Of a stretch of 64,000 bases of DNA, positions 15,865-21,986 are shown one piece after another. Every line of letters begins with the position of its first letter. The first letter of the stretch is position 1. The notes below the pieces were generated by a model, which had not been told where the DNA came from, made no database searches, and saw only the letters and a program-made list of their open reading frames with translations. This DNA is from Cupriavidus basilensis (GTDB taxonomy: Bacteria > Pseudomonadota > Gammaproteobacteria > Burkholderiales > Burkholderiaceae). The stretch spans positions 434,001 to 498,000 of the forward strand of contig NZ_CP062803.1 of the NCBI RefSeq assembly GCF_008801925.2, given 5' to 3'. A program made the position numbers and the translations under genes.

Positions 15865-16115
15865 TATAACTGGGTGGGCGGCATTCGGCATGCTGCATCG
15901 CGGTGCACCGAAACAGGGTGCGGGCAAACGCGGTGCGTGCACGGCACTTGCCGCCGGCATGGGCCGATTATCACGCTTCAAGCGTCCCCGGGAAAGCGCC
16001 AGCGCGGGCTGGTAACACCTTTTAACGTCAGTAAGTTCGCTGGGAGACAGTCGGCCTCGTCCATTTTGATGTCTCTTTGCGCACAAAATGACTTTCTCTT
16101 GCCACGGTTCCATCC

Positions 16116-16131
16116 TGGCACGGCAGTTGCA
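16116..16131 (+). promoter_or_regulatory. sigma-54 promoter of torF-glnK-amtB
   Basis: TGGCAC-GGCAG-TTGCA is a full match to the -24/-12 consensus, with GG at 16117-16118 and GC at 16129-16130. It predicts a start near 16142, 70 nt ahead of torF. Nitrogen limitation through NtrB/NtrC is the expected signal. Confidence 0.87.
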
Positions 16132-16211
16132 GTAATGGAGACAGGAGCCTCGTTTTACAAACTACTTTCAAACACACGAGTACCGAGCCAGAGGAAAAGG
16201 AGAACAAACCC

Positions 16212-17425
<1,214 letters not shown>

Positions 17426-17442
17426 GCGAGGAGAAAAAACAA

Positions 17443-19209
17443 ATGACAAACTTCATGAGACGCTTTCTGGTGGCGTTCGCGCTGCTGTTCAGCATTTGCG
17501 GCCTGGCCCGCGCAGCCGATTTCCCTGGCGCCAAGCTGAGTTTTGAATTGGGCAAGGCCGAATTGCCCGCGGACGGCGCCGCGGCGGCCGCCAAGGTGGC
17601 AGAGTTCGTCAAGGCGAACGCGGGCGCCAAGGTCCAGGTGTCGGGCTTTACCGATACCACCGGCGACGCGGCAGCCAATGCCGAGCTGGCCAAGCAGCGC
17701 GCCCTGGCAGTGGCTGCCGCGCTCAAGGCCGCTGGCGTGCCTGACGACGCCATCGTGATGAAGAAGCCCGATGAGGTCGAAAAGGTCGGCAACGCCGAGG
17801 CAGCGCGCGTGGTGGAGATCTCGCTCGTGGCGGTAGCGCCCGCAGCGGCCGCCGCCGCCGCTCCCGCCGCCGCCGCGGCAGCGCCCGCGCCCGCACCGGT
17901 GCCCAACAAGGGCGATACCGCCTGGCTGCTGGTCTCTACGGCCTTCGTGATCCTGATGACGCTGCCTGGCCTGGCGCTGTTCTACGGCGGCCTGGTCCGC
18001 TCGAAGAACATGCTGTCGGTGCTGATGCAGTGCCTGGTGATCTTCTCGCTGGTGTCGCTGCTGTGGGCCATCTATGGCTACAGCTTCGCCTTCACCGAGG
18101 GTAACGCCTTCTTTGGCGGCACCGACCGGCTCTTCATGAAGGGGCTCAATGCCGATGCCGTGGCTGCCACCTTCTCCAAGGGCGTGGTGGTACCGGAACT
18201 GGCTTACTTCGCCTTCCAGTGCGCCTTCGCAGCGATTACCTGCGGCCTGATCATCGGCGCTTTCGCCGAACGCGCCAAGTTCTCGGCGGTGCTGGTCTTC
18301 GTGGTGCTGTGGTTCACCTTCTCGTACATCCCGATGGCCCACATGGTCTGGTTCTGGCCTGGTCCTGACCTGTACACCGACGCGGCAGCCGGCGCGGCAG
18401 CTACGGCCAAGGGCGGCTGGCTGTTCCAGAAGGGCGCGCTCGACTTCGCTGGCGGCACCGTGGTGCACATCAACGCAGCCGTGGCTGGCCTGGTGGGTGC
18501 CTTCATGTTCGGCAAGCGGATCGGCTTTGGCCGCGAGGCCCTGCGTCCGCACAGCCTGACCTTCACCATGGTGGGCGCTTCGCTGCTGTGGTTCGGCTGG
18601 TTCGGCTTCAACGCCGGCTCGGCGCTGGAAGCCAACGGCTCGGCCGCACTGGCCTTCGTCAACACCCTGCTGGCGACCTGCGCCGCCGTGCTGTCCTGGA
18701 CCTTTGGCGAATGGATCAGCAAGGGCAAGCCCTCGATGCTGGGCGGCGCTTCGGGCGCAGTGGCTGGCCTGGTGGCCATCACCCCGGCGGCCGGCTTCGT
18801 CGGCCCGATGGGCTCGATCGTGATCGGCATCGCCGCCGGTCTGCTGTGCCTGTGGGGCGTAACCGGCCTGAAGAAGCTGCTGGGCATGGACGACTCGCTC
18901 GACGTCTTCGGCGTGCACGGCGTGGGCGGCATCCTGGGTGCGCTGCTGACCGGCGTGTTCGCCGCGCCGAGCCTGGGCGGCACGGGTATCTATGACTACG
19001 TGGCCAACAAGGTCTCGGACGACTATTCGATCGTGGGCCAGGTGTGGATCCAGTTCGAAGGCGTGCTCACCACCATCGTGTGGTCGGGTGTGGTGGCCTT
19101 CGTGGCCTTCAAGCTGGTGGATATGCTGATCGGCCTGCGGGTGCCGGAAGAAGAAGAACGCGAGGGCCTGGACATCACCTCGCACGGCGAGACCGCGTAT
19201 GAGGCCTGA
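17443..19209 (+). CDS. amtB: ammonium channel AmtB with an N-terminal OmpA-like periplasmic domain
   Basis: A 588-residue protein, about 160 longer than ordinary AmtB. A signal peptide (1-24, ending ARA) leads into a domain at about 27-130 that reads like an OmpA C-terminal domain: GFTDTTGD with Asp71, a QRALAV helix, and AARVVEI with Arg122. An Ala/Pro linker (132-154) joins it to the complete 11-helix AmtB core. The core keeps the pore histidines (GGTVVHINAA and FGVHGVGG) and the DFAGG aspartate. AmtB has a periplasmic N-terminus, so the extra domain should face the cell wall. The ATG at 17443 follows GAGGAG. Confidence 0.95.
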   Translation: MTNFMRRFLVAFALLFSICGLARAADFPGAKLSFELGKAELPADGAAAAAKVAEFVKANAGAKVQVSGFTDTTGDAAANAELAKQRALAVAAALKAAGVPDDAIVMKKPDEVEKVGNAEAARVVEISLVAVAPAAAAAAAPAAAAAAPAPAPVPNKGDTAWLLVSTAFVILMTLPGLALFYGGLVRSKNMLSVLMQCLVIFSLVSLLWAIYGYSFAFTEGNAFFGGTDRLFMKGLNADAVAATFSKGVVVPELAYFAFQCAFAAITCGLIIGAFAERAKFSAVLVFVVLWFTFSYIPMAHMVWFWPGPDLYTDAAAGAAATAKGGWLFQKGALDFAGGTVVHINAAVAGLVGAFMFGKRIGFGREALRPHSLTFTMVGASLLWFGWFGFNAGSALEANGSAALAFVNTLLATCAAVLSWTFGEWISKGKPSMLGGASGAVAGLVAITPAAGFVGPMGSIVIGIAAGLLCLWGVTGLKKLLGMDDSLDVFGVHGVGGILGALLTGVFAAPSLGGTGIYDYVANKVSDDYSIVGQVWIQFEGVLTTIVWSGVVAFVAFKLVDMLIGLRVPEEEEREGLDITSHGETAYEA

Positions 19210-19262
19210 TCGTAAAGGTGTTGTGCTGGAGAGCTGATTGGGAATCTTCTCTCAGGAGTTTC

Positions 19263-19287
19263 GCCCGGCCTTGTGCCGGGCTTTTTT
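19263..19287 (+). terminator. intrinsic terminator of the torF-glnK-amtB operon
   Basis: GCCCGGC (19263-19269) and GCCGGGC (19275-19281) pair around CTTGT, followed by six T residues. Confidence 0.92.
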
Positions 19288-19381
19288 CATTTCAGGCGTC
19301 CGCCGCGGGCGGCCGGGCCAGGCGCAAGGCGGTGCCGGCGGCTTTTTCGCAAAGTGCTTAAATCCGATCTTAAAAAGCTTC

Positions 19382-19501
19382 AATTGTTTTTGAGGGGGGG
19401 CGCACATACAGTGCCATGGAGGCAGTTTCCTCCACCTGCAGAACGCTCCCCGTATCTGTCAGGCCATTTGAAAGCGCGGCTCCGGTCGCGCTTTTTTTTT
19501 T
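19382..19501 (+). ncRNA. candidate structured small RNA with its own terminator
   Basis: The 420-bp gap between the amtB terminator and gshA holds no gene but contains a folded unit. An 8-bp stem GGGGGGCG (19395-19402) pairs with CGCTCCCC (19444-19451), using one G-U pair. Inside lie two hairpins, GCAC-ATACA-GTGC (19402-19414) and TGGAGG-CAGTTT-CCTCCA (19417-19434). A terminator follows: AAAGCGCG (19471-19478) with CGCGCTTT (19487-19494) and a ten-base T run. A weak sigma-70-like pair (TTCGCA at 19346, TTAAAA at 19370) could start it near 19382. It may be a free sRNA or an attenuating leader for gshA. Confidence 0.4.
19471..19501 (+). terminator. strong intrinsic terminator with no gene upstream
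   Basis: Stem AAAGCGCG/CGCGCTTT with an 8-base loop and T residues up to 19501. The amtB operon already ends at 19287, so this terminator needs another transcript; it is the main reason for proposing the small RNA. Confidence 0.8.
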
Positions 19502-19707
19502 GCCTCCCGGCCTTGCTGGCAGGCCACCCGGAAGTGCTTCGGATTCCTCTTAGGGCCTCCCCCTTTTATTCCGGGCCCCCATCCCCATATCCGTATCCCT
19601 TATCCCTTATGCCGGCGCTCGCATATGCTTATTCAGGCGGCGCCAGCAGCCAATTGGCCGTTCCTCTACAATCTGGGCGAACGATAAAGACGATCAATAG
19701 GATGTTT

Positions 19708-21003
19708 ATGGTCCCGCATCTCATCACCGCGCTGAACGGTCCGCTGCTCGAGCTGGAAAAAAAGATCCTGGATGCGACGCCGTCCATCGAGCGCTGGTTC
19801 AGGCTGGAATGGCAGGAACATACGCCTCCGTTCTACTGTTCGGTCGACCTGCGCAACGCTGGCTTCAAGCTGGCCCCGGTCGATACCAACCTGTTCCCGG
19901 GCGGGTTCAACAACCTGGCGCCTGAAATGCTGCCGCTGGCAGTCCAGGCGGCGATGGCGGCGATCGAGAAGATCTGCCCCGACGCCAAGAACCTGCTGCT
20001 GATCCCCGAGCGCCACACCCGCAACATGTTCTACCTGCAGAACGTGGCGCGGCTGTCGCTGATCATGCGCCAGGCCGGCCTCAACGTCCGCCTGGGCTCG
20101 CTGTCCGAAGACATCACCGAACCCACGCCGATCGAGCTTCCCGATGGCCAGACGCTGGTGGTGGAGCCGCTGGCCCGCCTTGGCGCGCGTGGCCGCCGCC
20201 TGGGGCTGAAGGACTTCGATCCCTGCTCGATCCTGCTCAACAACGATCTCTCCGCCGGCATTCCCCCGATCCTGGAGAACATCAACGAGCAATACCTGCT
20301 GCCGCCGCTGCACGCGGGCTGGTCCACGCGCCGCAAGTCGAGCCATTTCTCGGCCTACGACGAGGTTGCCAAGAAGTTCGCCAAGCTGATCGACATCGAT
20401 CCGTGGATGGTCAACCCGTACTTCGCCAAGTGCGGGGGCATCGATTTCCATGAGCGCATTGGCGAGGAGGCGCTGGCCGACGCGGTCGAAGGCGTGCTCA
20501 AGAAGATCGCCAAGAAGTACCGCGAGTACGGCATCAAGGAAACGCCGTATGTCGTGGTCAAGGCCGATGCCGGCACCTATGGCATGGGCATCATGACCAT
20601 CAAGGATCCGTCCGAGATCAAGGGGCTGAACCGCAAGGAACGCAACAAGATGAGCGTCGTCAAGGAAGGCCTTGAGGTCAACGACGTCATCATCCAGGAA
20701 GGCGTGCACACCTTCGAGAAGGTCAACGAGGCGGTGGCCGAGCCGGTGGTGTACATGATCGACCGCTATGTGGTCGGTGGCTTCTACCGCGTGCATACCG
20801 GCCGCGGCAACGACGAGAACCTGAACGCGCCGGGCGCGCATTTCGTGCCGCTGGCGTTCGCGCCCAACGGCATTCCGGACAGCCATGCCAAACCGGGCGC
20901 GGCCGTGCCGAACCGCTTCTATATGTATGGTGTGGTGGCGCGGCTGGCTTTGCTGGCGGCGTCGCTGGAACTCGAGAAGACCGACCCCAATCCGATTCTC
21001 TGA
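19708..21003 (+). CDS. gshA: glutamate-cysteine ligase, proteobacterial GshA type
   Basis: A 431-residue enzyme making gamma-glutamylcysteine, the first step of glutathione synthesis. It belongs to the betaproteobacterial GshA family (TIGR02049-like), not the E. coli family. Conserved stretches include [28 protein letters not shown] and the ATP-grasp-like [14 protein letters not shown]. The ATG at 19708 has AGGA six bases upstream; an ATG at 19702 would add two residues. gshB follows 29 bp downstream, so the two form an operon. Confidence 0.95.
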
Positions 21004-21032
21004 GACAAACGCTGCGACCGGGACGAGCCAAC

Positions 21033-21986
21033 ATGCGCATTCTGTTTATTACCGACCCGCTGGACACCTTCAAGACCTACAAGGACTCGACCTACGCCAT
21101 GATGGTCGAGGCGGTCGAGCGTGGCCATGAGTTGTTCGCCTGCCTGCAGTCGCAACTGTCGCTTTCGGCCCATCAGGTCGAGGCGGTGGTGCGCCCGCTG
21201 CAACTAACGGGCGATGCCCATGACTGGTACCGCGCGGGCGAGCCCTGCCTGCAGCCACTGACCGGCTTCGATGCGATCGTGATGCGCAAGGATCCGCCCT
21301 TCGACATGGAGTATGTGACCAGCACCTGGCTGCTGGAGCTGGCCGAGTCGCAGGGCGCCAATGTGTTCAACAAGCCGCAGGCGATCCGCGACCACTCCGA
21401 AAAGCTGGCGATTGCCCGCTTTCCCGAATACATCACGCCGACCCTGGTCACCCGTGACGAGGATCGGATTCGCGCGTTCCACGCGGAGCATCGTGATGTG
21501 ATTCTCAAGCCGCTTGATGGCATGGGCGGGATGGGCATCTTCCGGGTTGGCGCGGATGGGCTGAATCTTGGCGCCATCATCGAGACGCTGGGGGAAAACG
21601 GTGCGCGCACGCTGATGGTGCAACGTTATATTCCCGAGATCAAGGACGGTGACAAGCGCATCCTGCTGATCGGCGGCGTGCCCGTGCCGTACTCGCTGGC
21701 GCGTATTCCCAAGGACGGCGAAGTGCGCGGCAACCTGGCTGCGGGCGGCACCGGCCGCGCCCAGGAGCTCTCGGCGCGCGATCGCGAGATCGCCGAGGCG
21801 CTGGCCCCGGGCCTGTGGGAACAAGGCCTGCTGCTGGTCGGGCTGGACGTGATCGGCGACTACCTGACCGAGGTCAATGTGACCAGCCCGACGTGCTTCC
21901 AGGAAATCACGCAGCAGACCGGGTTCCAGGTGGCTGCCATGTTCATCGACGCCCTCGAGCACGCTGTACAGGCGCGTTCGCGCTGA
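21033..21986 (+). CDS. gshB: glutathione synthetase
   Basis: A 317-residue ATP-grasp enzyme that adds glycine to gamma-glutamylcysteine. It shows [16 protein letters not shown] at the N-terminus, the [11 protein letters not shown] segment, the glycine-rich ATP loop [13 protein letters not shown], and [18 protein letters not shown] near the end. The ATG at 21033 is immediately preceded by the gshA stop region. Length and motifs match the E. coli enzyme closely. The next gene, EIIA, is only 52 bp downstream, so read-through is possible. Confidence 0.97.

Follow-up and report, generated by a model that had tools for sequence, protein, structure and literature searches.

In the window, i.e., the whole analysed stretch of 64,000 nucleotides from Cupriavidus basilensis, the amtB reading frame extends on the plus strand from an ATG at position 17443 to a stop codon at 19207-19209, encodes a protein of 588 amino acids and starts 17 bases past the stop codon of glnK. 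The locus comprises the following features:

17087..17425, plus strand: glnK (P-II protein), the partner gene; best NCBIfam matches are P-II/GlnK models, both slightly below their cut-offs
17426..17835, plus strand: replaced stretch (blastn); contains the ribosome-binding site, the signal peptide, the OmpA-like module and the first codons of the linker
17428..17433, plus strand: Shine-Dalgarno sequence GAGGAG (sequence)
17443..17514, plus strand: signal peptide, residues 1-24 (sequence), with a probable cleavage site, placed by inspection, between ARA and AD
17515..17826, plus strand: OmpA-like module, residues 25-128 (PF00691; predicted fold)
17653..17655, plus strand: codon of Asp71, counterpart of Asp271 in Acinetobacter baumannii OmpA (AbOmpA); identical in 118/118 non-redundant modules
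17698..17700, plus strand: codon of Arg86, counterpart of AbOmpA Arg286, 15 residues after Asp71; identical in 118/118
17806..17808, plus strand: codon of Arg122, first Arg of the RRVEI-type strand, not the diaminopimelate Arg; identical in 118/118
17827..17913, plus strand: Ala/Pro linker, residues 129-157 (composition; pLDDT below 50 at residues 131-143)
17914..19209, plus strand: AmtB channel core, residues 158-588, and stop codon (PF00909; Foldseek)

A putative porin of the TorF family is located 5' of glnK (window positions 16212-17021), and genes for glutamate-cysteine ligase and glutathione synthase lie downstream of amtB (19273-21986). The succession of signal peptide, OmpA-like domain, Ala/Pro linker and full AmtB core proposed in an earlier, sequence-only reading of this DNA was recovered in all its parts by Pfam and by inspection of the sequence, and the maximum hydropathy of the signal peptide over nine residues amounts to 3.07. 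A translation start behind the linker, which would have deprived the channel of the domain, appears unlikely from the sequence, because a signal peptide precedes the linker in plain relatives as well and because no Shine-Dalgarno-like stretch was seen on reading the sequence before the GTG of codon 153.

The channel core itself matches PF00909 over residues 160-586 (410.7 bits vs. a cut-off of 23.2, E-value 6.9e-123) and the ammonium transporter model TIGR00836 (450.9 vs. 343.3), while the score for the narrower AmtB equivalog PRK10666 (557.9) stays below the cut-off of 657. In a Foldseek comparison it aligned with AmtB from the Escherichia coli AmtB-GlnK complex (2nuu) at 55% identity and a TM-score of 0.92 by target, and His342, His492 and Asp334, i.e., the twin histidines and the pore aspartate that we take to correspond to His168, His318 and Asp160 of the E. 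coli protein, are invariant in all 62 aligned fusions. E. coli AmtB (2nuu, 1u77) resembles the protein studied here in its complete channel core and in the adjoining glnK; the matched chains from E. coli have 362-410 residues and presumably lack a comparable module. A second Amt encoded in the same genome (G000:C2:1751285-1752421, L002) is 32% identical in the core, and the match spans the core only. In addition, short matches to pieces of Amt, perhaps decayed copies, occur in two relatives (G002:C225:33366-33664 and G029:C2:1738573-1738913).

Residues 34-106 match the OmpA family PF00691 with 51 bits vs. a cut-off of 27.2 (E-value 1.9e-13) when the whole protein is searched, and the N-terminal 155 residues alone do so at 1.7e-14. 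The match ends at position 76 of the 98 positions of the profile (residue 106) and thus does not cover the profile as a whole; the last strand beyond it is seen both in the predicted models and when the profile is aligned with YiaD. None of the OmpA-type NCBIfam models was listed over its own cut-off, as is expected since these models were built for particular whole proteins, while solved chains of OmpA, Pal, YiaD and YfiB were matched by sequence. AlphaFold2 modelled the full protein on the basis of 62 aligned fusions with a mean pLDDT of 83.6 and placed residues 30-128 in a beta-alpha-beta-alpha-beta-(alpha)-beta arrangement, the order typical of OmpA. When modelled alone, the module reached a pLDDT of 78.3 and again displayed the beta-alpha-beta-alpha-beta fold. 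The best 50 Foldseek matches of this model (E-values of 3.2e-7 and weaker) were OprF, Pal, TagL, YiaD, YfiB, OmpA and like domains, and included 3td5 (E-value 5.7e-6), in which the OmpA-like domain from A. baumannii is bound to a peptide of the wall. A chance resemblance to OmpA is ruled out by the PF00691 E-value, the predicted fold and the Foldseek matches. The fusion of an OmpA-like domain with AmtB is real, and both the profile search and the structure prediction proposed with the sequence-only reading came out in favor of an OmpA/Pal-type domain. In place of the Gly-rich turn that precedes the last strand of ordinary OmpA domains the module carries a K-K-P stretch; this and the end of the Pfam match at residue 106 suggest that the edge of its pocket may differ from that of ordinary OmpA domains.

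In the portions available of two studies on A. baumannii OmpA, Asp271 and Arg286 are described as binding diaminopimelate (PMC5974059; PMC12108004). These two residues are 15 positions apart, and the same step leads from Asp71 of the AmtB fusion to Arg86 within the QRALAV helix. A profile of 16 modules likewise aligned Asp71 and Arg86 with the Asp/Arg residues of YiaD, Pal and PA0833. Spacing and alignment with solved structures together identify Arg86 as the second member of the putative diaminopimelate pair. With regard to the pair originally suggested, Asp71 and Arg122, both positions and the role of Asp71 hold, while the part of the diaminopimelate arginine passes from Arg122 to Arg86. To evaluate conservation, 241 modules, taken from 222 proteins, 18 reading frames and the AmtB studied here, were reduced to 118 at 85% identity, 70 of them on Amt and 48 on other hosts. 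In this set, gathered by shared-word searches that favor conserved stretches, Phe34, Asp71, Gly74, Asn79, Arg86, Gly98 and Arg122 are identical in 118/118 modules, Pro109 is kept in 117 and many other positions vary. Residue 123 is Arg or Lys in 59 of the 70 Amt modules and Val in the protein studied here. Judging by its invariance, Arg122 matters to the module family, yet the wall-binding arginine would be Arg86. The periplasmic place of the domain and the possible tether to the cell wall that had been put forward from the sequence are supported by the family match, by the fold and by the pair being conserved throughout; for the outer-membrane partner suggested alongside, the data speak neither way.

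With regard to its distribution, the module is a newcomer in the genus. At E-values up to 1e-8 it was found in one of 60 Cupriavidus genomes, the one studied here, and no protein of this genome other than AmtB carries it at that threshold. In relatives, e.g., L004 and L034 (C. basilensis OR16), the place of the module is occupied by a plain signal peptide followed by an Ala/Pro tail. Blastn alignment with L004 yielded 98.7% identity over positions 15993-17425 and 96.0% over 17836-19295, positions 17426-17835 remaining without match; in L004, the place of this stretch of about 410 bases is taken by about 190 bp that comprise a spacer, a plain signal peptide and the linker. On its left side the replacement starts at the stop codon of glnK; this edge falls on the identical base in comparisons with L034, L035, L036, L043, L005 and L037, while the right edge varies within ten bases. 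In the draft sequence of L034, the part of amtB that encodes signal peptide and linker is not in the reading frame of the core, owing to either a sequencing error or a broken gene.

Among 139 AmtB cores in the fetched loci (the AmtB loci of this genome excluded; 59 and 80 from two sources whose genomes may partly coincide), two carry the module, both from genome G326. The module motif was absent from any forward frame in the 600 bases before the 137 unfused cores, at least 450 of these bases being present for 129 cores and fewer for eight. Plain AmtB is thus the rule among the relatives seen. The survey of carriers that the sequence-only reading had recommended amounts to one of 60 genomes in the genus, two of 139 cores and at least 175 fusions elsewhere.

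In a phylogenetic tree of cores, for which 118 of 192 sequences were used including a hand-picked subset of the plain loci, this AmtB is located among those of Cupriavidus (SH-aLRT 100, 11 sequences), and eight changes of the fused state are needed, at least six of which are forced by well-supported branches. The module, on the other hand, groups with those of P0006, P0001 and P0003, all of them Amt fusions (support 95), in a tree that is weakly resolved (55 of 115 inner branches below 80). Two Amt modules, P0063 and P0074, fall outside the main Amt group and may represent separate fusions. Compared with 175 fusions, the core is 62-74% and the module 46-79% identical, while the core reaches up to 99% identity with plain Cupriavidus AmtB. 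Based on sequence relationships, the domain belongs with OmpA-Amt fusions of other Burkholderiales and the core with Cupriavidus. The different kin of module and core and the sharp edges of homology indicate that the module arrived by an exchange of the 5' end of the gene, with crossovers at the end of glnK and in the GCC-rich linker. An ancestral domain that was lost by the rest of the genus is rejected on the same different kinship, as seen in survey, edges and trees.

A close donor was not found among records that may not include those nearest to this genome, the best module among the proteins listed, that of P0006, being 79% identical. The module would have come from a glnK-amt operon elsewhere in the Burkholderiales; the fusion in G326 also follows a glnK, which is 78% identical to the one studied here. 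GC3 values of 0.823 for signal peptide and module, 0.884 for the core and 0.893 for glnK give no clear foreign signal. An origin from plasmids was rejected, as the module had no match at E-values up to 1e-8 in 72,556 plasmid records. In a distant DNA search run with positions 17100-18100 for the same check, 86 records matched, none of them over 80% of the query, and the annotated matches among 20 of these records were glnK/amt genes.

The module is not confined to ammonium channels. Searches with the N-terminal parts of this AmtB and of P0078 matched 171 and 492 proteins, respectively, with 120 listed in each case, and 175 of the 222 distinct proteins listed contain both module and Amt core, such fusions being numerous in metagenomes. 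Many are near-copies, the 175 fusions collapsing to 69 modules at 85% identity. Source names among the proteins listed include Rubrivivax, Piscinibacter, Sphaerotilus, Xylophilus, Albidiferax and Jeongeupia. According to Pfam (precomputed host classes, checked by hmmscan on ten representatives), the module also occurs on H+-pyrophosphatase, on CoxB with cytochrome c, on FixP-type CcoP, on cytochrome c proteins, on DUF2853 proteins and on YidB-like proteins. A survey of the order detected it in 73 of 399 sampled Burkholderiales genomes (E-values up to 1e-9). Classification of 29 loci besides our own, out of 101 entries, in six frames assigned eleven to pyrophosphatase, seven to CoxB, one to Amt (G326) and one to cytochrome c; nine had no match to the host references, and most of these are small proteins. 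The fused Amt is uncommon in sampled species: the two surveys of the order share only G000, i.e., the genome studied here, and G326 among the entries listed. In a survey of 321 sampled genomes of the class, five places gave matches above 100 bits, four of them distributed over three Burkholderiales genomes and one outside the order (G652, locus L176), the next match scoring 77 bits. The protein encoded at L176 combines a hydrophobic segment, several Ig-like-looking repeats and the module, and could be a stalk that reaches the wall.

The module is located at the C-terminus of pyrophosphatases (L116, L117, L118, L120, L121, L127, L128, L130, L136, L137 and L140; P0089) and of CcoP with a FixP_N domain (P0106) or CoxB (P0071, P0081 and P0082; L114, L119, L123, L124, L129, L131 and L138), and thus on subunits of two kinds of terminal oxidase. 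In L174 and L175, and also in L135 and L141, small proteins are made up of a single hydrophobic segment, a linker and the module, and are possible stand-alone inner-membrane wall anchors. The N-terminus of Amt and the C-termini of CoxB, CcoP and pyrophosphatase are periplasmic. Among the 48 non-redundant copies on hosts other than Amt, a hydrophobic membrane segment follows the module in none and precedes it in 46, as judged by simple hydropathy; some of these segments, e.g., those of cytochrome c proteins, could be signal peptides. The remaining two copies are P0079, with a hydrophobic stretch below threshold, and L138, whose CoxB-like frame is truncated where the locus begins.

The module resembles the C-terminal domains of OmpA and Pal (PF00691) in its predicted fold, the Asp-Arg spacing of 15 residues and an N-x2-L-x3-RA helix. 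It differs in the turn before the last strand, and also in its setting, since OmpA and Pal domains are found on outer-membrane proteins or lipoproteins and this one on an inner-membrane channel. The MotB stator and TagL, the long form of TssL in type VI secretion systems, are examples of proteins of the inner membrane that an OmpA-like domain fixes to the wall. TagL matches the module by structure and sequence, MotB weakly and by sequence. The fusion studied here likewise carries a putative wall-binding domain on the side of an inner-membrane protein that faces the periplasm. MotB and TagL anchor machines that need a fixed point, whereas no such need is evident for an ammonium channel, and in contrast to MotB and TagL the module of AmtB is N-terminal. 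A C-terminal OmpA-like domain has been described for the membrane pyrophosphatase of Paucibacter and others in a paper that, in the portions available, leaves its role open and in whose main text the word 'peptidoglycan' is absent (PMC11210485). Sequence searches assign this domain to the same module family, with the difference that it is C-terminal there and N-terminal in AmtB. A profile match on a further membrane energy complex, an unrelated host, namely residues 755-832 of the photosystem I subunit 7f4v_aB (E-value 2.8e-9), stems from what we take to be Gloeobacter, and no literature on this OmpA-like stretch was found. Neither was an account of an OmpA-Amt or OmpA-CoxB fusion in the literature searched, to which subscription journals mostly did not belong.

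Taken together, we consider it probable that the protein is a working AmtB channel bearing on its periplasmic N-terminus a non-covalent peptidoglycan anchor, and that this anchor is a transferable part that tethers inner-membrane proteins to the wall. After cleavage of the signal peptide, the OmpA-like module would fold in the periplasm, where Asp71 and Arg86 may grip the meso-diaminopimelate of wall peptides, and the connection from the module to the first membrane helix would be a flexible stretch of about 29 residues, the Ala/Pro linker. With three subunits per channel, an AmtB trimer would possess three such grips. Transport itself would presumably be unchanged; the channel would be held against the sacculus, with slower diffusion or a fixed position as the effect and presumably some benefit to the cell. 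Recombination replaced the roughly 410 bases between the glnK stop codon and the linker, presumably from a donor whose Amt already possessed the module. The module family is spread over several inner-membrane proteins of energy conservation and transport, attached to parts expected to lie in the periplasm.

An alternative that we regard as unlikely is that the module serves for docking, i.e., that its OmpA fold is used for contact with a different periplasmic protein or with further copies of itself rather than with peptidoglycan. OmpA-like folds do bind proteins, the TolB/Pal and YfiB-YfiR complexes being among the Foldseek matches, and a common partner would suit one module on different hosts. 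The complete identity of Asp71 and Arg86 among modules in which many other positions vary is, however, the expected mark of wall binding, and the lack of a second module-bearing protein in this genome (E-values up to 1e-8) speaks against docking between such proteins here. Quite improbable, in our view, is neutral baggage, a segment brought in by chance recombination whose fold persists and is useless in this strain. The single occurrence among 60 genomes of the genus, the prevalence of plain AmtB in the relatives seen and the eight changes of state on the core tree would agree with it, but the frame, the signal peptide and the seven invariant residues are all intact, and the modules of the 175 fusions still share 46-79% identity with this one. 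A periplasmic plug or sensor that alters channel gating is highly implausible. Topology does put the module on the periplasmic side of the channel, but the linker, long in fusions (15-70 residues with a median of 30 in 66 measurable cases among 70 Amt fusions; 56% Ala, 17% Pro) and modelled with low confidence, would be a poor gating lever.

Beyond the individual channel, the peptidoglycan anchor lends itself to a wider reading that we put forward tentatively and hold to be rather doubtful: Burkholderiales might pin inner-membrane energy and nutrient complexes to the sacculus via one transferable anchor, the wall acting as a scaffold that sets their positions, and lineages could pass the anchor on by exchanging no more than the 5' part of a gene. 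The complexes concerned would be the ammonium channel, the ion-pumping pyrophosphatase, subunits of aa3 and cbb3 oxidases, and cytochromes. For the organism studied here, the data do not support the idea of the wall as a scaffold for several complexes, since AmtB alone carries the module in this genome at E-values up to 1e-8.

OmpA-like anchors on inner-membrane machines are already known, and it is the fusion with Amt that appears to be new. Why bacterial membrane complexes keep their place is an open question, for which nature provides pairs of channels with cores up to 99% alike, with and without a putative wall-binding domain, so that the effect of anchoring becomes directly measurable. 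The module represents a common handle on several bioenergetic complexes, and the case of AmtB shows how a domain can be gained by replacement of only the start of a gene.
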